A stretch of DNA of 64,000 nt from Pseudomonas sp. CCI4.2 (GTDB lineage: Bacteria; Pseudomonadota; Gammaproteobacteria; Pseudomonadales; Pseudomonadaceae): positions 3,396,501-3,460,500 of the forward strand of contig NZ_CP133781.1 of NCBI RefSeq assembly GCF_034350045.1, given 5' to 3'. Each line of letters starts with the position of its first letter. The first letter of the stretch is position 1. The notes below the pieces were generated by a model. The model was not told the origin of the DNA. It did no database searches and saw only the letters and a list, made by a program, of their open reading frames with translations. A program made the position numbers and the translations under genes. Shown piece after piece: positions 49,439-63,934 of the stretch.

Positions 49439-50047
49439 TCACCGTTTGCTTTTGATGATGGTGCCAAGGCCCTGAAGGTAAGCGACCAACGCATCCATTT
49501 CAGTTTTGCCTTTGACGGCAGCGCTTGCACCGGCGATGTCTTCGTCAGTGTAAGGAACGCCGAGCGTGCGTAAGACTTCCATTTTTTTCCCGGTGTCTTT
49601 GCCATCGAGCTTGTTTTCTACCAGGAACGGGTAGGCAGGCATTTTCGACTCAGGCACAACGTTGCGAGGGTTGTATAAGTGGGCGCGGTGCCAGTCGTCA
49701 GAGTAACGCCCGCCGACACGGGCCAAATCAGGACCAGTACGCTTGGAACCCCACAGGAACGGGTGATCCCAAACGCTTTCACCGGCGACTGAATAGTGAC
49801 CGTAGCGTTCTGTTTCAGCGCGGAACGGGCGAATCATCTGCGAGTGGCAGCCGACACAACCGTTGGCGATAAAGATGTCGCGGCCTTCGAGTTCCAGTGC
49901 CGGGCGCGGCTTCATGCCCTCGACTGGCTTGTTGGTTACATCCTGGAAGAACAACGGAACAATCTGGGTCAGGCCGCCGATGCTGACGGCAATGACCATG
50001 AAGAAGGCCAGTAGGCCAATGTTCTTCTCGAGAACTTCGTGTCTCAT
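49439..50047 (-). CDS. ccoO: cbb3 oxidase subunit II CcoO (operon 1)
   Basis: The 202-residue monohaem cytochrome c has an N-terminal membrane anchor ([20 protein letters not shown]) and the haem site [15 protein letters not shown]. Its ATG overlaps the ccoN stop by one base. The sequence is close to the copy at 52944 throughout. Confidence 0.97.
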
Positions 50048-51489
50048 CAGTGAGCTCCAACTACAGCGATCTGAGCGGCGGCTTCAGCTTCAACCGGGTC
50101 CGAAGCGCGAACGGTGCGCAGCACGTTGTACGCCATGAACAGCATGCCGCTGGCGAAGAAAGCACCGCCAATGGCGCGGACGATGTAGCCCGGGTGGCTG
50201 GCTTGCAACGCTTCGACGAACGAGTAGGTGAGGGTGCCGTCATCGTTGATCGCACGCCACATCAGGCCCTGAGTAATACCGTTGACCCACATCGAGGCGA
50301 TGTACAGAACGGTGCCGATGGTTGCCAGCCAGAAGTGCGTGTTGATCAGGCCAACACTGTGCATCTGCGGACGACCGAAGACTTTCGGGATCATGTGATA
50401 CAAGGCACCGATCGAGATCATCGCCACCCAGCCAAGCGCGCCGGCGTGTACGTGGCCGATGGTCCAGTCAGTGTAGTGAGACAGCGAGTTGACGGTCTTG
50501 ATGGCCATCATCGGGCCTTCGAAGGTCGACATGCCGTAGAACGCCAGGGAGACCACCAGGAAACGCAGGATCGGGTCGGTGCGCAATTTATGCCACGCCC
50601 CCGAAAGGGTCATCATCCCGTTGATCATGCCGCCCCAGCTTGGCGCCAGGAGAATGATCGACATCGCCATGCCCAACGACTGAGCCCAGTCGGGCAATGC
50701 GGTGTAGTGCAAGTGGTGCGGACCGGCCCAGATATACAGAGTGATCAGCGCCCAGAAGTGCACGATGGACAAGCGATACGAATAGATCGGACGCTCAGCC
50801 TGCTTCGGAACGAAGTAATACATCATTCCCAGGAAGCCCGTGGTGAGGAAGAACCCTACCGCGTTGTGGCCGTACCACCATTGAATCATTGCATCCGTCG
50901 CACCGGCGTACGCCGAATAGGACTTGAAGAATGAAACGGGCAGCGATGCGTGGTTAACGATGTGCAACATCGCCGTCACGAGAATAAACGCGCCGTAGAA
51001 CCAGAGGCCCACGTAAATGTGTTTGGTCTTGCGCTTGACGATGGTGCCAAAAAACACAATCGCATAAGTAACCCAGACAATAGCCAACAAAATAGCGAGA
51101 GGCCATTCCAGTTCGGCGTATTCCTTGGTTGTTGTATAACCCAGCGGCAACGTGATGATTGCGCCAATGATCACTGCTTGCCATCCCCAGAAGTGGAAAG
51201 CAGCCATGCCATCGGAAATTAATCGTGTCTGGCAGGTTCGCTGCACGACGTAATAAGAAGTGGCAAACAATGCACATCCACCAAAGGCGAAAATCACCAG
51301 GTTTGTGTGCAATGGGCGTAAGCGTCCGAAAGTCGTCCACGGCAAACCCAAATTTAAATCGGGCCATACAAGCTGCGAGGCGATAAAGACACCAAGCCCC
51401 ATGCCAAGGATCCCCCAGACCACCGTCATGATGGCGAACTGGCGGACTACCTTATAGTTATAAGCAGTCGGACTGATTGCTGTGCTCAT
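50047..51489 (-). CDS. ccoN: cbb3 oxidase catalytic subunit CcoN (operon 1)
   Basis: The 480 residues form about 12 membrane segments and carry the low-spin haem b and the haem b3-CuB centre. Histidine-bearing blocks include [34 protein letters not shown] and [14 protein letters not shown]. First gene of ccoNOQP. No ANR consensus box was seen in the 200 bases upstream, unlike operon 2. Confidence 0.97.
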
Positions 51490-51922
51490 TCTAAGGTTCC
51501 ACGGTTGGAGTATTTTTTTGAATAAAAAAGCGGTCGCAAGTATGGAGAAAGCAGGTTTTCATTGCAACGCGACCAAAGCCTTGCAACTGCTCTCTGAAGC
51601 TGATTCTGCGGCCGTTACAGCATGGTCAGAAGGCCGTTTGGCATCCTGAAGAAATGCTGAAGTAGACATACAAAGTAACGGTTCCAAGCCGGTGAAATGT
51701 AGTGCGCAGCACGAGAAACTACAGAGCAATACCAAAGTCAACGGCGAAGAGCCGTTGTACCGGGCGTTTTGCGCGCAGTGTCGAACAATCTGCAATGCAC
51801 AGGCGTATCACTTTTTTGGTGACCTACTGTTGGCGGTCCACTGTGCGACGAAGCTTAGTCCTGAATGTCTGGGGTGGGAAGCTGTTCCCATAATGGGTGC
51901 GACACTTGGTCGCGGAAAATAA
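51490..51922. other. Spacer between the two cbb3 operons
   Basis: This region of over 400 bases must hold the ccoN1 promoter (AT-rich run at 51508-51530). Short open frames on both strands (around 51559-51922) show no motif or ribosome site and are not called. No REP element is present, unlike most gaps in the window. Confidence 0.5.
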
Positions 51923-51923
51923 G

Positions 51924-51957
51924 AAAACTGCCGCTCCTGTCCAGGGAGTGGCAGTTT
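51924..51957 (-). terminator. Terminator of the second cbb3 operon
   Basis: AAACTGCC and GGCAGTTT arms, continued by ACTCC/GGAG-type pairing, with a T-rich end on the minus strand, 33 bases beyond the ccoP2 stop. Confidence 0.8.
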
Positions 51958-51989
51958 CTTAGCCTTTAGGTGGTTCTCGTTACAAAAAC

Positions 51990-52940
51990 CTATTTTGCCT
52001 TGGCTGTTTGTTCCCCAGTTTGAGCACTGTCTTGCGACAGGCTGTAAACATAGGCGGCCAACAACTGCACTTTGTCATTACCTAACAGGTCGGTTTGCGC
52101 AGGCATTTGGCCCTGGCGTCCGTAACGGATAGTTTGTTGCAATTGCGCCACGCTGCTGCCGTAGATGAAACCGGCGGGTTGAGTCAAGTCCGGCGCACCC
52201 ATTGCTTGAGTGCCTTTACCGGCAGGGCCGTGGCAAGCAACGCAAGTGGTGTTGAACGTTTGTTGGCCCGCTTCTATGTTGGCGCTGTCGCCTGCCGAAC
52301 GTGGCAAACCGGCAAGACCGTGACGAACATAAGCCGCTACGTTCTTCACGCCTTCGTCACCCAGAATCGGACCCCAGGCTGGCATCATCGCGATGCGGCC
52401 GCCCATGATGGTGGTCTTGATGGTGTCGGGACTGCCGCCCCAGCGCCAGATTTTGTCCGCCAGGTTAGGGAAGCCGTAGGCACCCTTGGCGTCCGAGCCG
52501 TGGCACACCGAACAGTTAGACGCAAACAGACGCCCGCCCATTTTCAATGCCTGTGGATCTTTGGCGACTTCTTCTACCGGCATGGCCGCGAATTTGGCGA
52601 AGATCGGTCCGAACTTGGCGTCAGCCTTGTCCATTTCCTTCTGCCATTCGTTGACCCCGGTCCAGCCATTTTCATAGCCAGGCAAGACGCCCTTCCAGTT
52701 GCCCAGGCCCGGGTAGAGGATCAGGTAACCGATTGCAAACACAATCGTCCCGGCAAACAACATGAACCACCACTGCGGCAGCGGGTTGTCATATTCCTCG
52801 ATGCCGTCGAAGCTGTGCCCCATGGTCTGATCGGTGCTGCCTTTGGTTTCGCCCTTGCGGGTGCCGACCAGCAACCAAGTGAGGGCTATCAGCGTGCCAA
52901 TGGTCAGCACGCAAATGTAGGTGCTCCAAAAAGTTGTCAT
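51990..52940 (-). CDS. ccoP: cbb3 oxidase subunit III CcoP (operon 2)
   Basis: This is a 316-residue dihaem subunit with the same layout as the copy at 48268: N-terminal membrane segments, then NCSVCH and TCVACH haem sites. The linker before GWTGV is shorter. It begins three bases after the ccoO2 stop, leaving no room for ccoQ. Confidence 0.96.
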
Positions 52941-52943
52941 GGC

Positions 52944-53552
52944 TTACCTCTTGCTCTTGATCGAAGTGCCAAGCACTTGCAGGTAGGCTACTAGCGCGTC
53001 CATCTCGGATTTGCCCTTGACGGATTCGACGGCCCCAGCGATGTCGCCATCGGTATATGGCACGCCAAAGTTACGCATGGTCTTGAGCTTGATTTCGGTG
53101 TGGCTGCTGTCGAGCGGCGTCGTTACCAACCATGGGTAGGCGGGCATTTTCGATTCCGGTACGACGTTGCGCGGATTGTACAAATGCGCACGGTGCCAAT
53201 CATCCGAGTAGCGTGCGCCAACCCGTGCCAAATCCGGTCCGGTGCGCTTGGAGCCCCACAAGAACGGGTGATCCCAGACGCTTTCACCGGCTACTGAATA
53301 GTGGCCGTAGCGTTCGGTTTCAGCGCGGAACGGCCGAATCATCTGCGAGTGACAACCCACACAGCCGTTGGCGATATAAATGTCGCGACCTTCAAGTTGC
53401 AGCGCGGTGTAAGGCTTCATACCTTCCACCGGTTTGTTGGTCACATCCTGGAAGAACAGCGGCACAATTTGCGTCAGGCCACCGATGCTCACAGCCAGCA
53501 CCATCAACAGCATTAACAGGCCAACGTTTTTCTCGATTACTTCGTGTTTCAT
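52944..53552 (-). CDS. ccoO: cbb3 oxidase subunit II CcoO (operon 2)
   Basis: The 202 residues have the membrane anchor [20 protein letters not shown] and haem site [15 protein letters not shown]. It differs from operon 1 CcoO mainly near residues 125-160 ([17 protein letters not shown]). It lies ten bases after ccoN2. Confidence 0.97.
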
Positions 53553-53562
53553 GGCGAACTCC

Positions 53563-54987
53563 TCAGGCCATTTGCGCAGCGGCGATGGCTTCGGCAGGCA
53601 CTGAAGCCCGCACGGTGCGCCATGTGTTGTAGGCCATCAGCAGCATGCCGCTGAAGAAAATTGCGCCACCAATCAGCCGCACTACATAACCAGGGTGGCT
53701 AGCGACCAGGGTTTCGACGAAGGAGTAAGTGAGCGTGCCGTCTTCGTTGACTGCGCGCCACATAAGGCCTTGAGCAATACCGTTGACCCACATCGAAGCG
53801 ATGTACAACACGGTGCCGATGGTTGCCAGCCAGAAATGCGCATTGATCAAACCCATGCTGTGCATTTGTGGACGACCGAAGATCTTCGGAATCATGTGGT
53901 ACAGCGCGCCAATCGAGATCATCGCTACCCAGCCAAGAGCGCCGGCGTGTACGTGGCCGATGGTCCAGTCGGTGTAGTGGGAGAGGGCGTTGACGGTCTT
54001 GATGGCCATCATCGGCCCTTCAAAGGTCGACATGCCGTAGAACGCGAGTGAGACGACCAGGAAGCGCAAGATCGGATCGCTGCGCAACTTATGCCAGGCA
54101 CCTGACAACGTCATCATGCCGTTGATCATGCCGCCCCAACTTGGCGCCAGCAGAATCAGCGACATCACCATGCCCAACGACTGTGCCCAATCCGGCAGCG
54201 CGGTGTAGTGCAAGTGGTGAGGACCGGCCCAGATGTACAAGGTGATCAATGCCCAGAAGTGCACGATGGACAAACGATACGAATACACCGGACGTTCGGC
54301 TTGCTTGGGAACGAAGTAATACATCATCCCCAGGAAACCTGCAGTCAGGAAAAACCCTACTGCGTTGTGCCCGTACCACCACTGCACCATGGCGTCTGTC
54401 GCCCCGGAGTAGATCGAGTAGGACTTGGTCAGGCTGATCGGTACTTCGAGGTTGTTGACGATGTGCAACAGAGCCACGGTGAGAATGAACGCACCGAAGA
54501 ACCAGTTACCGACGTAAATGTGCTTGGTGGTACGTTTCTTCAACGTGCCAAAAAACACGACGGCGTAGGCCACCCAGACAATGGTGATCAGGATGTCGAT
54601 CGGCCATTCCAGTTCAGCGTATTCTTTGGAGCTGGTATAACCCAGCGGCAAAGAGATGGCAGCCAGTACGATCACTAGTTGCCAACCCCAGAACGTAAAC
54701 TGCGCCAGTTTCGGCGCAAACAGTTGCGTCTGGCAGGTGCGTTGTACTGAGTAGTAAGAAGCTGCGAACAGCGCACACCCACCAAAGGCAAAAATCACGG
54801 CGTTGGTGTGCAAGGGGCGCAAGCGCCCAAACGTGGTCCACGGTAAGTCGAAGTTAAGTTCGGGCCAAACCAATTGCGCGGCGATAAATACACCGAGCCC
54901 CATTCCGACGATCCCCCACACCACCGTCATAATGGCGAATTGGCGGACCACCCGATAGTTGTAGGCGGTACTGTTCGTTGTAGTCAT
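53563..54987 (-). CDS. ccoN: cbb3 oxidase catalytic subunit CcoN (operon 2)
   Basis: The 474-residue paralogue of the CcoN at 50047 has the same histidine-bearing motifs ([40 protein letters not shown]). The central region is nearly identical to the other copy, while about residues 90-180 and the last 20 diverge. First gene of ccoN-O-P. A near-perfect ANR box at 55113-55126 lies about 130 bases upstream, so this is probably the low-oxygen-induced operon, as recalled for cco2 of P. aeruginosa. Confidence 0.97.
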
Positions 54988-55851: not shown

Positions 55852-58512
55852 TTATTTTTTGATCCCGAAGCAGTTCAACTGAAAGTTATTCGACACCAGA
55901 TCTACGCTGCCACTGTCCAGGTTAAAGGCTCGGGAGTTTCCCAGTGAGCCGCTGGAGACTTGTTCATTCGTCCACCAACCCCAGCCATTGTTCCAACCTA
56001 ATAGTTGGCCTACAGCCGGACTTTCCCCGGCATACACGGCGCGAAGTTGTTTGAAGTCGTTCGCATTCATCGAGTGAACGCCTTGCTGATCGCAAAAAGC
56101 CCGATAGCCGTAGAAGTCCTTGCGTACATCCGGGAACCCTACAAACACTCGCGCGCCCGACGTTGTCAGTTGGTAACTCGCGGTCGCACCCAATGCATCC
56201 GTAGCCGTGATAGCCGTTACACCATTGCCGGCAGCGGTAACCTTGCCATCCTGATCAACGAGCGCCACCCGAGGGTCGCTTGATTGGTATTGATAAGGCG
56301 GCTGACCACCGGTGGCGGCTCGAGTGTAGATCGCACTGATCGGTGGGTTCGCGGGTGGTCGTCCTTCGAACACTACATAGCCCGCCAGCGCGAGCGCATA
56401 GTCGGCGCCGAGGTTCAAAGGTGGCGCCAACGCCTGCACTTGAAACGTCGTCGCTGTTGACTCCACGGGTGCGGCTACACCACGAGTGACGTTATACGTG
56501 ACCCCGGCCGACGTACCGGCACTGCCCACGGCGACCGACTTGGGCACCGTAAACTTGATCGCCCCGGCTTCCCCCGCGTCCTGAGGCGCGGTCGTATGGG
56601 AAGAACCGCCAACCCACTTCACGATAATGCTGTCCTTGCCATCAATGCCGGTGTAGCGAGGGACCGTTACCTGTACGCCGGAATCGGGGACGTTTTCCGG
56701 GATTAAGTTGTTGTCTGAGTCCACACCGGCGACGGTGGGTTTGGGTAGCAATGTCAGGCCCGGAGCACCAACCTTCACGATTAAAACGTCCGAGAAGAGT
56801 GTTTGATTGCCTCGTTCCACCGTGTACGAAACATTCACGTTGCGGTTCAGGTTAGCGTCCACATAGGTTTTTTTGACACGAAAAACGACTTCCTTCCCGG
56901 ACGTGCCGCTGTTGAGCGTAGTACTCGTGCTGTACACCCCGCCCGAGGACGTGCCATCCCAATGCAGAATGACTTTGTCCAACGGCGCCATGCTGGTAAA
57001 CGGCTGAATACGTACTATGGCTTCCAGAACGAGGTCATCCGGATCGAGTACGCCATCGGCACTCAATCCATCGACATTCGCAGGTGGCAGCAGAGCGCTC
57101 CCGTCTGCGCTGACTTGAACATGCAATGACGGTGACTTGAAAAACGCCCGGGCAAAGGTAGTCACCGTGTAATACAGCTCAAGCGTGCCGCCTGCCAATG
57201 CGCTGACTTTTTCGTCAGGGATCAAAAACGCCAGCGGCACCCCAACATCGTCGCTATTGAGATTCTTGACCTCCTCATGAATTACATTGGCGCCGCTGGC
57301 CGTCTTACCCATCCATACCAACGTCACGTCGTTGCCGTCGGCCATGAAGTAATACGCCGGAACCAACGTGATGACGTTGTGTGCGGTTGGGTCAAGCACA
57401 CCGTTGTTCTGCTCGGCCGCAGGCAGCTTCGGTGGCGCCAAGACTTGGGTTTCACCGACGACCGTCAAGGGCAAGCTTTTGGAACGGAGTTCTTCGCCGA
57501 ACTCTTTCGTAACCTTGTACTTAAGCCGCGCGCGACCTTGGGCGATCGGCGTGAATTGCTCGTTGGGAATAAAGAACTCTACAAACCCAACAGACGTACC
57601 CACTGTTTTCGTCGAGACATAGGGTTCCAGCGCCATTCCTTCGGCAGTGTTGCGCTCGAGCGTTAGGGTGATCTCGTCTGCGGGGTTGTTGCCTGGATAA
57701 GACAGCACTAGCGCCTGAACATCGGCACCGGCCAGAAGGGTAAGGTCCAATTCCAGGTTGACCGCTTGTGGAGCGACTGGCGCGGGCAGGGTGGAATTGC
57801 CGGCTTCTACTTCGACGCAGGTGGGGAGAGACCAGCGCGACCAATTGTTTACGACGTCGCGGATTTCATACCGCACTTCCAACATGTCGGAATCGCCAGC
57901 GGCATTAACTACTTCCTCGGAAATAAGCAATACAACAGGTTTACCGATCTCTGCTGTAGATTTCAATTCGTATTTGACGAATTGACCGTTCCACGAAAGG
58001 GTAATTCTGTCGCCGACTTCCATGTGTTGATAAGGAGAAATGTTAGTAATTACGCCCTTAGGCGAGCTAATAATGCCTTGAGGTATGATGATTACTTTGG
58101 TCAGCGCTTCGTTTTCCCAAGGAGTGGCTGGGTTGGTGTCAGTACCGCCTGGAGAATTTAACTTGACCCTGATTGTGGCTGGTAAGGATGTGTTTTTTAA
58201 ACCCCCGATAGGTTCGGTCACTTCGTATAATAGGATTATTTGTTCGGGGTGGATATATCGTTGCCCCAGTTCTAAAACAATATGCGACGGTGTTTCAGGA
58301 ATAAGGTCTCCTTCCTTGATCGTATAATTAAAAACAAGGATGCCATCGCAGTACAGATCGATAATATGGCCCGCCGCCATGTCAGAGTATGGTCCCACCT
58401 TTACGAGCAGGGGTACGCTGGGGTCGAGTGTATCTGCATAGCCAATGCCGCTAGGATCATGAAGATTTACCATGGCCGGCGCGGGAAGTAATGCTTTGAG
58501 TGAGTTAGTCAT
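55852..58512 (-). CDS. Large Ig-like repeat protein with Big_2-like and lectin-like C-terminal domains
   Basis: The protein has 886 residues. About six modules of 110-120 residues start near residues 8, 122, 245, 362, 478 and 588. They share an Asp-rich opening (DGVLDPDDL, NNGVLDPTA), a GD-x-[IV]-x-L-x-W-x-G strand, a [FI]-x-[IV]-P block, and a final Y-x-V strand. Residues about 695-790 resemble a bacterial Ig-like Big_2 domain (DPRVALVDQDGKVTAAGNGV). The last 90 residues (DFYGYRAFCDQQGVH, GWNNGWGWWTNEQ) suggest a lectin-like or DUF1566-like end. There is no signal peptide. A surface or adhesion role is inference only. Confidence 0.75.
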   Translation of the reverse strand: MTNSLKALLPAPAMVNLHDPSGIGYADTLDPSVPLLVKVGPYSDMAAGHIIDLYCDGILVFNYTIKEGDLIPETPSHIVLELGQRYIHPEQIILLYEVTEPIGGLKNTSLPATIRVKLNSPGGTDTNPATPWENEALTKVIIIPQGIISSPKGVITNISPYQHMEVGDRITLSWNGQFVKYELKSTAEIGKPVVLLISEEVVNAAGDSDMLEVRYEIRDVVNNWSRWSLPTCVEVEAGNSTLPAPVAPQAVNLELDLTLLAGADVQALVLSYPGNNPADEITLTLERNTAEGMALEPYVSTKTVGTSVGFVEFFIPNEQFTPIAQGRARLKYKVTKEFGEELRSKSLPLTVVGETQVLAPPKLPAAEQNNGVLDPTAHNVITLVPAYYFMADGNDVTLVWMGKTASGANVIHEEVKNLNSDDVGVPLAFLIPDEKVSALAGGTLELYYTVTTFARAFFKSPSLHVQVSADGSALLPPANVDGLSADGVLDPDDLVLEAIVRIQPFTSMAPLDKVILHWDGTSSGGVYSTSTTLNSGTSGKEVVFRVKKTYVDANLNRNVNVSYTVERGNQTLFSDVLIVKVGAPGLTLLPKPTVAGVDSDNNLIPENVPDSGVQVTVPRYTGIDGKDSIIVKWVGGSSHTTAPQDAGEAGAIKFTVPKSVAVGSAGTSAGVTYNVTRGVAAPVESTATTFQVQALAPPLNLGADYALALAGYVVFEGRPPANPPISAIYTRAATGGQPPYQYQSSDPRVALVDQDGKVTAAGNGVTAITATDALGATASYQLTTSGARVFVGFPDVRKDFYGYRAFCDQQGVHSMNANDFKQLRAVYAGESPAVGQLLGWNNGWGWWTNEQVSSGSLGNSRAFNLDSGSVDLVSNNFQLNCFGIKK

Positions 58513-58576
58513 TTAAATGTCCAAGTTTATTTATTCGTTGGAAGGCGAGTCTTTAAGACCCGCCTGGTCGATTAAA

Positions 58577-60436
58577 TCAGCACCCTATACCAGGAATGGC
58601 CATTCGAATCAAAACCGACGCGGTTCGGGAGTTGACCGGTCCGTTAGGGCCATCCACTTTGTAATAAGCTTCTGCATGCCCGGTACAAATAAGCCGTAAC
58701 TTGCTATCCGAAATGCGGAAGCTATAGCCGTTAACGATTTCATCAGCGTCTAGCGTATGCGTTTCTTCTAGACTTGCGCCCGGTACAGGCGTGCTGCCGT
58801 TGGCGGCGTTATATCCGTGAAACACAAGGGTAACGCGAGGGTAATTCTCAATGTTTTCGTAGGGAGCAATGAAAACAGGCGTGCCGTCAGGACTTAGAAC
58901 TGGACTGATAGCGTTATTGTCATTGGCGCTTGTGTACACTGGTTGAAACAAGCCGGCTTCGCCGCCCGGTAAATCGCCCTCCGATCGAACTTCGACTGAT
59001 TGGGAGAATGACTTAGATATGTTTGGATTGCCGTCATGGCTAACGGTGTAGTACACTTTGATCGCTTCACCAGTGCCCTCTGCAGTTATCACTGAATTGG
59101 GGATGGTTAACGTAATATCCTTGTCTAGATCGATTGTTTCGATTTGAAATGTGACTGGTATTGGTTGTGAACCCCAGTATAAGTGGATTTGGTCGCTGAT
59201 TGTGAAATCGTTCTTCCAGCCAATGATGGCCTTTGCCTCAAGCAAGAAATCTTCTTCATCAATTACGTTGTCGTCGTTATTGGCACTGCTGCTGGTTCCT
59301 CTGATTATCGGTAGATCGAGATTCTCATTTTCTGGGGTTTCTGGGTCAGGATCAACGGGGCCTGGCAGTTCTAAATTAACATTTACCATCAGCTCAGTAG
59401 AACTGCCGATCAAAAAGTTACTGCGCCACACCTCATAACGAAGTGCGACCTCTCCATCCCTAGATAGCGCGATGGTAGAATAACGAACGTTGATATCAAA
59501 GATCGGATTTTGTGTTTCATCTCCGGGCTTCAATTCAGCTTCAGGCAAAGCACTATCACCCCAGTACAGGGTTACTTTGTCACCTGCTTGAGGATCAGGG
59601 TATTGAGGAACGCTCACCGCTACAATGGCGCGCGCATCCGCGTCATCAACCACACCGTCTTCGGCCTGAGGGCAAAGCGGAGCCGGGAAGTCAGTTGGTG
59701 CGGGTGTTAGAAATAGGCTAAACGTTTTTGTCTGAGATTTGATTGAAACGTTGCCTGCGCGGTCGGTCACAATATAGTAGACCGGCTCCGCAACATCACC
59801 AACGCTTTCCAAGAATGCTCGGTCAAAGTCGATCATCACCTCATCCATGGTGACTTCATCTTCTACTACAGTGTGCGTTGGGCCAGGTTTTTCGCCCCAA
59901 AATGTCTGAATGTAATCCCCCCACGCAATGCCGGTATACCCAGGCACTTCGGTGCTTATTACATCGCCCAAACCCGATAATTCGGCCGAGGTCAGCACCC
60001 CGTCATCGACGACAGACGGGAATATCAGCCCGGCTAACAACCCACCGCCTGGAGCGGTTTTGTCGACAATAATGTAAGTTGGGTCGGAGTCGTTAGTTAG
60101 ACCTCCGGCGGCGTTTGTGGCCCGGTAGGCTACCTCAAATCTTCCGTCGTTAACCAAAAGAAATTCTGGAATTTCGAGAAAAATCGAAGCACCTGGTGTT
60201 TCATCGATGGCTATTTCTTTAATCTTTCCTTCAGCTTTGCCATCCCATAATAACTGATACTCATCTCCAGGTAAGGCATCGTCCCAGACGACCAAAGTTG
60301 CAATGATAGAATTCTGCAAGTCTTCAAGCGTCAGTAATCCATCGGCGGGGTCAGCTAACGGCACGATGGGAGCGTTTAACGCCCGTGGATTATTTTTTTT
60401 TCGGGTGATCAATGAGCGTGGATTTGATGTGCACAT
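58577..60436 (-). CDS. Ig-like repeat protein, paralogue of the downstream 886-residue protein
   Basis: The 619 residues form about five modules of the same type as the neighbour at 55852 (from about residues 20, 130, 250, 375 and 490). Each opens with an Asp/Gly-rich loop (ADGLLTLEDL, DDGVLTSAEL, EDGVVDDADA, NDDNVIDEED) and has GD-x-x-x-L-x-W-G. The N-terminus MCTSNPRSLITRKKNNPR is basic and not a signal peptide. It ends in cysteine (IPGIGC). Base composition looks lower in GC than the window average. It is probably co-transcribed with the downstream gene (64-bp gap). Function unknown. Confidence 0.72.
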   Translation of the reverse strand: MCTSNPRSLITRKKNNPRALNAPIVPLADPADGLLTLEDLQNSIIATLVVWDDALPGDEYQLLWDGKAEGKIKEIAIDETPGASIFLEIPEFLLVNDGRFEVAYRATNAAGGLTNDSDPTYIIVDKTAPGGGLLAGLIFPSVVDDGVLTSAELSGLGDVISTEVPGYTGIAWGDYIQTFWGEKPGPTHTVVEDEVTMDEVMIDFDRAFLESVGDVAEPVYYIVTDRAGNVSIKSQTKTFSLFLTPAPTDFPAPLCPQAEDGVVDDADARAIVAVSVPQYPDPQAGDKVTLYWGDSALPEAELKPGDETQNPIFDINVRYSTIALSRDGEVALRYEVWRSNFLIGSSTELMVNVNLELPGPVDPDPETPENENLDLPIIRGTSSSANNDDNVIDEEDFLLEAKAIIGWKNDFTISDQIHLYWGSQPIPVTFQIETIDLDKDITLTIPNSVITAEGTGEAIKVYYTVSHDGNPNISKSFSQSVEVRSEGDLPGGEAGLFQPVYTSANDNNAISPVLSPDGTPVFIAPYENIENYPRVTLVFHGYNAANGSTPVPGASLEETHTLDADEIVNGYSFRISDSKLRLICTGHAEAYYKVDGPNGPVNSRTASVLIRMAIPGIGC

Positions 60437-60965
60437 GATAATTCTCCAAAGTGAAGGTGACGTTAAAATGATTTCAACGTTCGCCGTCTTTTAATGGCAA
60501 TAAGAGGTCGGTCACTTTTCCTTAGGAAAAGCTAATGAAAGGCCATCTATCGCCCAATGCTTAAGGTAGTACTGCTAGATAGATATTGCTCTATCTGCGT
60601 TTGAACTAATCGTAGGTGGGGTTTTTTGTCAATGGGTTGTGATGAATAAATATTTTATTTTTGGGGTCGAGTTTAGGCTGTACGAAATAGACTGCTTGCT
60701 TATAAGAATCGTCCTACTTTGATGTCCGCTCCTGTTCCGCGCTTATTAGGTTTCTAAATGCTCATCCTAAACGGTAGCATCTTTTTGGGCGTCAGCTGCC
60801 ATCAGTTAACTGCTTAACAAATGTCTGTAGGAAAAATATTACGTTTTTAAAGACAATTCCTACGCTTCAAAGAGACCCGCCATAGGGAGCCGAAGTCGGA
60901 GATATTGCAAACTATCCATTCTTGTTGTTAGCGTGGGAGTGCGTATATTGGAACGTAATGGACGT
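60437..60965. other. AT-rich divergent control region with inverted repeats
   Basis: These 529 bases hold no gene and separate the divergent repeat-protein and autotransporter genes. A palindrome CTTTTCC-TTA-GGAAAAG lies at 60515-60531, near the repeat-protein side. A spaced inverted repeat GTAGGAA ... TTCCTAC (about 60827-60862) lies near the autotransporter. Both share TAGGAA/TTCCTA-type half-sites and could be binding sites. Promoters for both genes must lie here. Confidence 0.5.
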
Positions 60966-63185
60966 ATGAATCGTCTTAACTTCGGAGTGGCAGGGATAAC
61001 CCTAGGAATGTCACTGGCTGGAGCGGCGTGGGCGGAAACAAATTATATCGTCGGGGGCATAACGGATATTAACGATTCGACTGACGATAATTATCAAGTT
61101 TCTGGAGGGGGTACTTTAAATATTAATAATGCCGATGTTGGATGGGTCAGGGCAGATAATTCATATGTAAATATCACAGGTGGATCGATTGGTCAGGGCG
61201 GCGCACATGGACTAGAATTAAGGGCAAGTGTGCTTAATGCAAGTGATGCTATTATTTCTAACTCGGCAGGTAACGGGCTTAGCCTAGTGTTCGGTGGAGG
61301 TGGAACCGTAAATGGCCCATCAAAAGCCTATGTAACTGACAGCGAGATATTTGGGGTCGGTAAGGGGGTTTTGGTGGGAAAGTCGGGTTATTTAGAGTTG
61401 CGCAATACTGACGTTACGGGGAGGCAGAACGATGAAGGTCAAGGCGTTGGGATCGATGTTAAGGGCGCTACGATAATCCTGGCACAGGATAGTTATGTTC
61501 TTGGCGACAGTGTGGGGCTTTTGGTCACTTCGGCTGGGCAGCTTCCTGGAGGTGGTGCAGATTCGAATGTAAACGCCATTATCGTCGATGGTTCTGTTGT
61601 ACAGAGCTTATATGGGGCCGCTATTAAAGTTGATGAAATTATTCACTCTGGAAATGTTTCCATTGGCGGTATCGCCAATATAATTATCCAAAACGAATCT
61701 ACCCTTCTGGCCGGTAACGGTAATCTGGTAGAAATCGAACACGCCAGCACCGCCAACTTCACCGTCGACAACAGCACCCTCACCGGCAACCTAGTCGCTG
61801 ATGACACCAGCACTCTCGACGTAGTCCTGAAAAACAACGCCAGCCTGACTGGCGACATCACCAATGGAAACAATCTAGCCGTCAATTCTGGCGCGCAGTG
61901 GCAGATGGTTGGCGATAACTCGGTCAAATCCTTGAGCCTTGGGGGTGGCCAGGTGAGGTTCGGTCTCGACGGGTTTCATACGCTGTCCTTGGGTGAGTTG
62001 TCCGGCAGTGGCGTGTTTGGCATGAAGATCGATCTGGATGCCGGAGTGGGGGATCTGTTAAGCGTGAACGGTCAGGCCAATGGTGATTTCACGTTGAAGG
62101 TCAAAAACACCGGCACCGAGCCAGTGTCTCCCGATTTGCAACCGTTGCAGATCGTTCATACCGAAGGCGGTGATGCGCAGTTCAACCTGCTGGGCGAGAG
62201 GGTGGATTTGGGCGCCTATTCCTACGAACTGGAGAAACAGGGCAATGACTGGTTCATCGTCGGGTCTGGCAAGACCATCAGTCCGTCGACGCAAAGCGCG
62301 TTGGCGCTATTTAACGCGGCGCCGACCATTTTCATGAGCGAGATGACGACGTTGCGCAGTCGCATGGGTGAAGTGCGTGGCAGTGGCGAAGGTGGGGGAT
62401 GGATGCGGGCTTATGGCAGCCGTTTCGAGGCAACCACTGGAGCCGGGGTTGGGTACAAGCAGCAACAACGCGGACTGTCGTTCGGTGCGGACGCCCCGGT
62501 TCCGGTCAGCAATGGTCAATTGTTGCTGGGTGTGCTGGGTGGCTACAGCAAATCTGATTTGGACCTGAACCGTGGGACGTCGGGCACGGTTGATAGCTAC
62601 TACGCGGGTGCTTACGGCACATGGTTGTCGGAGGAGGGTTACTACGTGGATGCGGTGCTCAAGCTGAACAAGTTCCGCAATGAGTCAAAGGTGGCGATGA
62701 GTGATCAGACCAAGGCCCAGGGCGATTACAACAACTTGGCGGTCGGTGGCTCGGTGGAAGTCGGCAAACACATCAAGCTCGGAGATGACTATTTCATCGA
62801 GCCTTTCGCGCAGATGGAGGCCGTGGTGGTGCAGGGTGATCACTACCGCCTTGATAATGGTCTGGAAGCCAAGAACGATCGCACTCAATCGGTTCTGGGT
62901 AAGGTTGGCAGCTCAGTGGGTCGTAACATCGCGCTCAAGGACGGCGGGGTGCTCCAACCGTACCTTCGCGCTGCGGTGGCTCATGAGTTTGCACGCAGTA
63001 ACAAGGTGACGGTCAACGACACGCGTTTCGACAATGACCTATTCGGGTCACGTGCTGAGTTGGGCGTCGGGGTGGCGGTGTCACTGTCGAAAAACCTGCA
63101 AGTACACGCTGACTTCGATTACATGAAAGGCAACAACGTCGAGCAGCCGTGGGGAGCAAATGTTGGCGTACGGCTGGCGTTTTGA
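60966..63185 (+). CDS. Autotransporter (pertactin-like passenger, C-terminal beta-barrel)
   Basis: The 739 residues run from the ATG at 60966 (MNRLNFGVAGITLGMSLAGA, cleavage after AWA); a GTG 11 codons upstream is possible. Residues about 24-430 form a repetitive beta-helix passenger (NINNADVGWVRADNSYVNIT, LELRASVLNASDAIISNSAG) ending in a pertactin-like cap (SLGGGQVRFGLDG). The last 270 residues are an autotransporter barrel (GGWMRAYGSRFEATTGAGVG) ending VGVRLAF. It should secrete and display its passenger. GC content changes near 61735. No protease catalytic motif was seen, so adhesion is more likely than proteolysis. Confidence 0.92.
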   Translation: MNRLNFGVAGITLGMSLAGAAWAETNYIVGGITDINDSTDDNYQVSGGGTLNINNADVGWVRADNSYVNITGGSIGQGGAHGLELRASVLNASDAIISNSAGNGLSLVFGGGGTVNGPSKAYVTDSEIFGVGKGVLVGKSGYLELRNTDVTGRQNDEGQGVGIDVKGATIILAQDSYVLGDSVGLLVTSAGQLPGGGADSNVNAIIVDGSVVQSLYGAAIKVDEIIHSGNVSIGGIANIIIQNESTLLAGNGNLVEIEHASTANFTVDNSTLTGNLVADDTSTLDVVLKNNASLTGDITNGNNLAVNSGAQWQMVGDNSVKSLSLGGGQVRFGLDGFHTLSLGELSGSGVFGMKIDLDAGVGDLLSVNGQANGDFTLKVKNTGTEPVSPDLQPLQIVHTEGGDAQFNLLGERVDLGAYSYELEKQGNDWFIVGSGKTISPSTQSALALFNAAPTIFMSEMTTLRSRMGEVRGSGEGGGWMRAYGSRFEATTGAGVGYKQQQRGLSFGADAPVPVSNGQLLLGVLGGYSKSDLDLNRGTSGTVDSYYAGAYGTWLSEEGYYVDAVLKLNKFRNESKVAMSDQTKAQGDYNNLAVGGSVEVGKHIKLGDDYFIEPFAQMEAVVVQGDHYRLDNGLEAKNDRTQSVLGKVGSSVGRNIALKDGGVLQPYLRAAVAHEFARSNKVTVNDTRFDNDLFGSRAELGVGVAVSLSKNLQVHADFDYMKGNNVEQPWGANVGVRLAF

Positions 63186-63243
63186 TGGAGTCATAAAGGC
63201 AGCTACAAGCTACAGGTTAGAAACTTGAAGCTTGAGTCTAGTC

Positions 63244-63284
63244 AAAAAACCCCCACCGGCCGTTGTGCCGTTGGGGGTTTCTTT
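63244..63284. terminator. Bidirectional terminator between the autotransporter and the small Ig-like gene
   Basis: AAACCCCCA...GGC and GCCG..TGGGGGTTT pair around a CGTTGT-type loop, with A-rich and T-rich flanks. It sits between convergent genes. Confidence 0.9.
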
Positions 63285-63286
63285 AT

Positions 63287-63934
63287 TCAGTCATCCTTTT
63301 TTTTGGGGCGGTTTTTGCGTTGGAAAGAGGTCTTCCTGCTTTTCTGTTTGTCGTTGGTTGAGTAGAAGTCCTGCAGTTTGACGTGCAGGATCGCTGAAGT
63401 GCCGATTCTCACTCCGTCACGGAACACGTCATAACAGACCTGAACCTTGCCCTGTCGGAGGAAAGAGGTCGGGCTGGAAAATAGCCACTGGGTGCCCATT
63501 ATCGATTGCTTGACGTTCAGTTCATCCACGCGTTGAGCGGGATATGTCACGCCACCCCAGAGCAGATTAAATGTATCCCCTGGCCTCAGGTAGCTCGAGC
63601 TAGGTATCAGCACATTGAAACCCTTTTGCGCCTGTGCGAGCGACATTGATTCAGGATCGATGCCGTCCAGCGAGGGTGCTTTCAGGTGATCGGAGATCAG
63701 AGCCGGCATCAGATCTTCGAACGAATACTCAGCAAACGCCGCCTGCGGATAGTTGAGTGATAGCTCTTCCGTGGAGGACGGGGGGTTAGCACTGATGTGA
63801 GCGTCTGACGACAATTGAGTCCCCGCAGGAACTCCAGGTTTGGATTGACTCTCTCGTCGCGCCGGACGGCCTTCGGTGGTTATGGGGTTTTTGCCGTTGG
63901 GGGTCGCAGAGCTTTTTGGGTCGTTGTCATCCAT
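63287..63934 (-). CDS. Small protein with a single Ig-like module and basic tail
   Basis: The protein has 215 residues. Residues 1-75 are polar and likely disordered. Residues about 85-195 match the module of the 55852 and 58577 proteins: LRPGDTFNLLWGG, WLFSSPTSFLRQGKVQVCYD, then GTSAILHVKL. The last 20 residues are strongly basic (KSRKTSFQRKNRPKKKDD). No signal peptide or membrane segment. It is convergent with the autotransporter. Function unknown; a single-module relative of the large repeat proteins, perhaps a fragment or a partner. Confidence 0.65.
   Translation of the reverse strand: MDDNDPKSSATPNGKNPITTEGRPARRESQSKPGVPAGTQLSSDAHISANPPSSTEELSLNYPQAAFAEYSFEDLMPALISDHLKAPSLDGIDPESMSLAQAQKGFNVLIPSSSYLRPGDTFNLLWGGVTYPAQRVDELNVKQSIMGTQWLFSSPTSFLRQGKVQVCYDVFRDGVRIGTSAILHVKLQDFYSTNDKQKSRKTSFQRKNRPKKKDD

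Follow-up and report, generated by a model that had tools for sequence, protein, structure and literature searches.

Intimin and invasin, which are inverse autotransporters (T5eSS), present a C-terminal Big_2 domain and a C-type-lectin-like tip on an Ig stalk. Giant T1SS adhesins (SiiE, MpIBP, and LapA type) are leaderless, acidic arrays of Ig-like domains, and pertactin-type autotransporters (T5aSS) have a signal peptide, a passenger, and a barrel. Here we describe an island in Pseudomonas sp. CCI4.2 that shares features with these systems; it lies in a 64,000-nucleotide stretch of DNA (the window; G000:C1:3396501-3460500). One of its proteins, P1, has the same C-terminal end as intimin and invasin, but it lacks a signal peptide and an inverse-autotransporter barrel, and its stalk is built from modules of a different sequence family. 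Thus, P1 is not intimin proper (no barrel, no leader), although its tip is intimin-like. The arrays are leaderless and acidic like the giant T1SS adhesins, two of which (SiiE and MpIBP) are among the predicted structural matches of the module; unlike those adhesins, they gave no RTX match in Pfam, no T1SS genes were found adjacent to them, no T1SS family recurred among 69 neighbors of the loci, and proteins of the P1/P2 type measure about 620 to 3,000 aa. The autotransporter of the island is an ordinary member of the pertactin type and differs from the other autotransporters of the same genomes in that its subfamily is linked to leaderless module proteins. Signal-bearing partner proteins of related loci appear to share a Cys-rich domain with halovibrin HvnA, as judged from a DUF2599 match. 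In contrast to HvnA, this domain is fused to the new module in related loci, and it is absent from the window; we treat the HvnA identity as a lead. By function, the island may be an adhesin system.

Layout of the island

The host genome is a single contig of 5.57 Mb. An ORF check confirmed the three module proteins that the earlier note had placed at 55852, 58577, and 63287 (P1, P2, and P3). The features are given below; module limits are from the module HMM, supplemented for P3 by an orthologue alignment, and those of the last two P1 domains are from comparison with intimin, with Pfam in addition for Big_2.

55852..58512, minus: P1, 886-aa leaderless protein with six modules, Big_2, and an intimin-like C-type-lectin-like tip
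58165..58404, minus: P1 module 1, residues 37-116
57808..58056, minus: P1 module 2, residues 153-235
57460..57726, minus: P1 module 3, residues 263-351
57112..57378, minus: P1 module 4, residues 379-467
56770..57021, minus: P1 module 5, residues 498-581
56437..56679, minus: P1 module 6, residues 612-692
56161..56412, minus: P1 Big_2-type Ig domain, intimin D2-like, residues about 701-784
55855..56160, minus: P1 C-type-lectin-like tip, intimin D3-like, residues about 785-886
58577..60436, minus: P2, 619-aa leaderless protein with five modules
60065..60307, minus: P2 module 1
59720..59953, minus: P2 module 2
59378..59623, minus: P2 module 3
58988..59236, minus: P2 module 4
58610..58885, minus: P2 module 5
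60437..60965, no strand: AT-rich divergent intergenic region between P2 and the autotransporter (~530 bp)
60966..63185, plus: autotransporter, 739 aa from ATG 60966, with a Sec signal peptide, a pertactin-type passenger, and an Autotransporter beta-barrel
63287..63934, minus: P3, 215-aa leaderless protein with a polar N-terminal tail, one module, and a basic C-terminal tail
63377..63622, minus: P3 module, residues 105-186
~64357-65022 (L009 2858-3523): P4, fourth module protein with two modules, next after P3 and beyond the window

P2 lies 64 bp upstream of P1, and the two genes probably form one operon; the divergent region 60437..60965 is presumed to be a control region common to P2 and the autotransporter. 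In a promoter and terminator scan of the island, sites were no more frequent than in shuffled sequences, and no structured RNA was found in the island. The island genes are under purifying selection (dN/dS of 0.10 to 0.22 against the nearest relative). Two tandem cbb3-type cytochrome oxidase operons (window positions 49439-54987) directly adjoin the island, and this cco site seems, judging by gene sizes, to hold the island in several related species (L041-L048).

The module and the P1 tip

Regarding the number of modules, the earlier note had counted about six, five, and one in P1, P2, and P3, and an iterated HMM returned 6, 5, and 1; the same HMM found 2 in P4. An HMM built without the window proteins recovered the modules of P1 and P2 (best E, 1.6e-10 at Z=10,000), and the best value among 1,000 shuffled sequences searched with it was an E of 4. 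The single module of P3 was weakly recovered by the HMM without window proteins (E, 0.37), and P3 orthologues retain the motif, i.e., invariant D, WG, G, R, and GxS columns. The module consensus reads Y....GD...L.W.G ... F.VP ... G...V.Y.V ... S......V.

The module had been called undescribed, and we found no match to it in Pfam, NCBIfam, PHROGs, or PDB sequences. A match to a well-characterized Pfam family with known export was named in the earlier note as speaking against its proposal. No Pfam or NCBIfam family fits the module or its relatives: 34 relatives of modules 4 and 5, scanned singly against Pfam, gave no meaningful family (one chance-level match to DUF6679), the module does not match the known bacterial Ig-like families (Pfam Big_*), and the module profile gave only chance-level matches to PDB sequences (best E, 0.03). 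An AlphaFold2 model of the module is a beta-sandwich (mean pLDDT, 85.8). Foldseek matched this model to Ig/FnIII-type domains, with the ice adhesin MpIBP, SiiE, and the biofilm protein RbmA listed among FnIII receptors, and VIA matched it to macroglobulin domains (Z, 10.4). The predicted fold therefore agrees with the description of the module as Ig-like, in the sense of Ig/FnIII/MG sandwiches; such matches of a model speak to fold and not to function. Compared with their neighbors, the large module proteins have an acidic composition and few Cys residues.

The C terminus of P1 closes with a Big_2 domain and a C-type-lectin-like domain, which the earlier note had overlooked. A profile of 23 relatives matched intimin (1e5u, E of 7e-16; 1f00, E of 3e-15), and the NCBIfam intimin model matched a related protein (E, 2.6e-13). 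When module 6, Big_2, and the tip were modeled together, the best-matching PDB chain was the C-terminal fragment of intimin (1f00; Foldseek E, 2.5e-10); with VIA, the P1 tip model aligned to 1f00 over 262 residues (Z, 12.9; rmsd, 6.3) and to invasin 1cwv with a Z of 9.0. The inverse-autotransporter barrel is absent from P1, in which Big_2 is the sole Pfam match. Homology of the tip to intimin does not in itself establish binding.

The tips are swapped among P1 orthologues while the modules stay. Between P1 and its orthologue in L114, modules 3 to 5 are 78 to 86% identical and the tip is 29% identical, and at least three kinds of tip occupy that position in the alignment of P1 orthologues. At other loci, an RCC1-like end replaces the tip (L010 and L054), and an array in L007 has no tip. 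The tip is also present on signal-bearing proteins (L052 and L079). Giant relatives of 2,200 to 3,000 aa (L049 7226-15226, L050 7172-16024, and L051 5158-11853) have DUF4329-like repeats at the N terminus plus one or two intimin-like tips.

Distribution and linkage to an autotransporter

P1-like matches were present in 225 of 299 Pseudomonas genomes, i.e., about three quarters of the species sampled. Among the carriers with a name are P. syringae, P. viridiflava, P. putida, P. congelans, and P. graminis. Plant-associated species are also represented, and several copies of the family per genome are frequent. A solo 253-aa leaderless protein with two modules, similar to the first modules of P1, is encoded elsewhere in the genome (L008 6064-6825; G000:C1:1192063-1192824), and proteins of 250 to 350 aa akin to it are nearly the sole module genes in several Pseudomonas genomes. 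Copies outside Pseudomonas were found in Pandoraea (L141) and on a Yersinia frederiksenii plasmid (L010 9857-13390), whose array ends in RCC1-like repeats and not in a lectin-like tip; a genome-contig scan with the Yersinia P2 homologue gave no match. Because a class-wide search of 369 genomes (E, 1e-6) detected the module in the genome of this strain alone, we regard its spread outside Pseudomonas as sporadic. A phage origin was rejected: IMG/VR yielded no module arrays, and the single record labeled "phage" is a 5.7-kb fecal scaffold of unverified status (L011; MT838112.1). The array on this scaffold has an intimin-like end, and an origin from the chromosome of a Pseudomonas relative is more likely. 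An anti-phage defense role was also rejected (no PADLOC match). Literature searches of incomplete coverage found no description of this combination, and the cluster is apparently unnamed so far.

The autotransporter stands between P2 and P3 and is thus flanked by module proteins, as first described. It matched the Pfam families Pertactin (E, 2e-26) and Autotransporter (E, 7e-55), and its N terminus, MNRLNFGVAGITLGMSLAGAAWA, was taken as a signal peptide by inspection. The product of 60966-63185 thus has the signal peptide, passenger, and C-terminal barrel of a classical autotransporter, with the ATG at 60966 as its likely start.

The earlier note had made its proposal depend on a conserved association with the autotransporter, and this association was borne out. 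Of the 22 autotransporters of this subfamily in 18 closed Pseudomonas genomes, 20 had a module gene within 10 kb; among 16 less related autotransporter regions from those genomes, the count was 0 (Fisher P value of 7e-9, to be taken as a guide only, given that these genomes are interrelated and were picked for carrying P1-like genes). At 31 named loci, an autotransporter was within reach in 25, and the order P3-autotransporter (opposite strand)-P2-P1 was seen in 21; among 40 other, more divergent 20-kb loci, 21 had an autotransporter. Some of the linkage seen in close species at the cco site reflects vertical inheritance. Independent instances are a further full set elsewhere in the same genome (L007), the Yersinia plasmid (P2-P1-autotransporter), and Pandoraea pneumonica, with two autotransporters and two arrays. 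No fusion protein of module and autotransporter was found.

Export and site of action of the arrays

The claim that P1, P2, and P3 have no signal peptide held: none has a leader, as judged by hydropathy rather than by SignalP, and none has in-frame room for one upstream (0, 18, and about 5 codons, respectively; open frames of 886, 637, and 220 aa). P4 likewise has no leader. Among 139 module ORFs from 45 loci, 7 exceeded the hydropathy threshold, and a single N-terminal signal looked real, that of a lipoprotein fragment (L007 3080). The corresponding lipoprotein gene, which encodes modules and a halovibrin-like domain, is split by an IS5-like transposase (L007 1004-3727), and its fragments were treated separately. 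No P1/P2-type protein had an export signal, and conservation of the leaderless state extends across more than 100 proteins.

Because an autotransporter moves no protein but its own passenger through the outer membrane, the autotransporter alone cannot explain export of cytosolic proteins; it may serve as an anchor or receptor for the arrays. The earlier note had proposed a search for neighbors and secretion genes; no secretion gene family was enriched or recurrent among the 69 neighbors. In another reading, which we consider unlikely, an existing leaderless secretion machine (T6SS foremost, otherwise T1SS) would handle the arrays as its cargo or effectors, and the autotransporter would be a co-regulated adhesin. 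The absence of signal peptides would suit such cargo, as would the variable C-terminal domains (including the RCC1-like one), the DUF4329 repeats at the opposite end of the giants, and the presence of a T6SS sheath gene (VipA) and an LssB-type T1SS ATPase in this genome. However, P1 to P3 carry no marker domains of these systems (Pfam), and the sheath gene is missing in 14 of the 225 genomes with P1-like matches. Most of these 14 hold only the short two-module protein (L008 type), but G192 and G045 have longer arrays without a T6SS, and G192 also has no LssB above the cutoff. Neither the T6SS nor the LssB-type T1SS is therefore universal among carriers. The T3SS was rejected as the exporter in this strain because its secretin fell below the cutoff.

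A targeted search found at least 11 proteins in which a Sec signal or lipobox precedes two or three of these modules and a Cys-rich domain; the Cys-rich domain is also found on signal-bearing neighbors. This domain, alone or fused to modules, occurs at L007 4279-5274, L146-L152, L162, L165, L169, and L174. It had no match in Pfam or NCBIfam; one of its plasmid matches is a DUF2599 protein, an architecture reported for P. aeruginosa HvnA (PA1914) (PMC3510237), and the domain may thus be halovibrin (HvnA)-like. Given that the module and the tip are present on signal-bearing proteins, they work outside the cytoplasm in some proteins, and an extracellular site is likely, though not certain, for P1 to P4 too. 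Under the opposite reading, P1 to P4 would stay in the cytoplasm as scaffolds, sensors, or proteins that protect by binding, and the module would have been recruited twice, inside and outside the cell. The conserved leaderless state is consistent with this, and the leader-bearing relatives form a distinct class with a halovibrin-like domain. Against it are the homology of the tip to the surface tip of intimin and its occurrence on signal-bearing proteins elsewhere, its strong diversification, and the linkage to an outer-membrane protein; we hold a cytoplasmic role to be improbable. Release by lysis of a subpopulation, after which the proteins would rebind the surface of siblings via the autotransporter as shared matrix proteins, would account for the leaderless state, the acidic arrays, the linkage to a single autotransporter subfamily, the missing dedicated exporter, and a predicted module fold resembling RbmA, but no lysis gene was recognized beside the loci, and we rate this scenario as very unlikely.

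We assign a probability of roughly 0.5 to the reading that the island is one copy of a Pseudomonas-centered modular adhesion or contact system with array stalks, an exchangeable tip, a cognate autotransporter, and leaderless exit. The "surface or contact system with modular parts" of the earlier note thereby gains support as an interpretation, mainly from the intimin-like tip and the signal-bearing relatives. In this adhesion or contact system, P1 and P2 would be stalks of tandem Ig/FnIII-like modules, the end of P1 would be an exchangeable recognition tip (here the intimin-type Big_2 and C-type-lectin-like domains), and P3, with one module, and P4, with two, would be accessory subunits. The Sec-exported pertactin-type autotransporter, self-anchored in the outer membrane, would probably be the partner of the arrays at the surface. 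The module proteins would work outside the cytoplasm, with P1 to P4 leaving without an N-terminal leader, possibly by lysis release or possibly by a non-universal machine. We infer a binding function for P1 to P4.

The module is in no curated sequence family despite its wide spread in Pseudomonas, and an intimin-type tip, leaderless arrays, and a fixed autotransporter partner are combined in one family. If the arrays act outside the cell, this would imply a missed export route or a strategy of lysis and rebinding; if they act inside, it would be just as surprising to find an intimin-like tip in the cytosol. It is doubtful that leaderless arrays with swappable intimin-like tips are exported or surface-captured via their cognate pertactin-type autotransporter in a dedicated assembly pathway. 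If true, such a pathway would constitute an adhesin system without an inverse-autotransporter barrel or any N-terminal leader.
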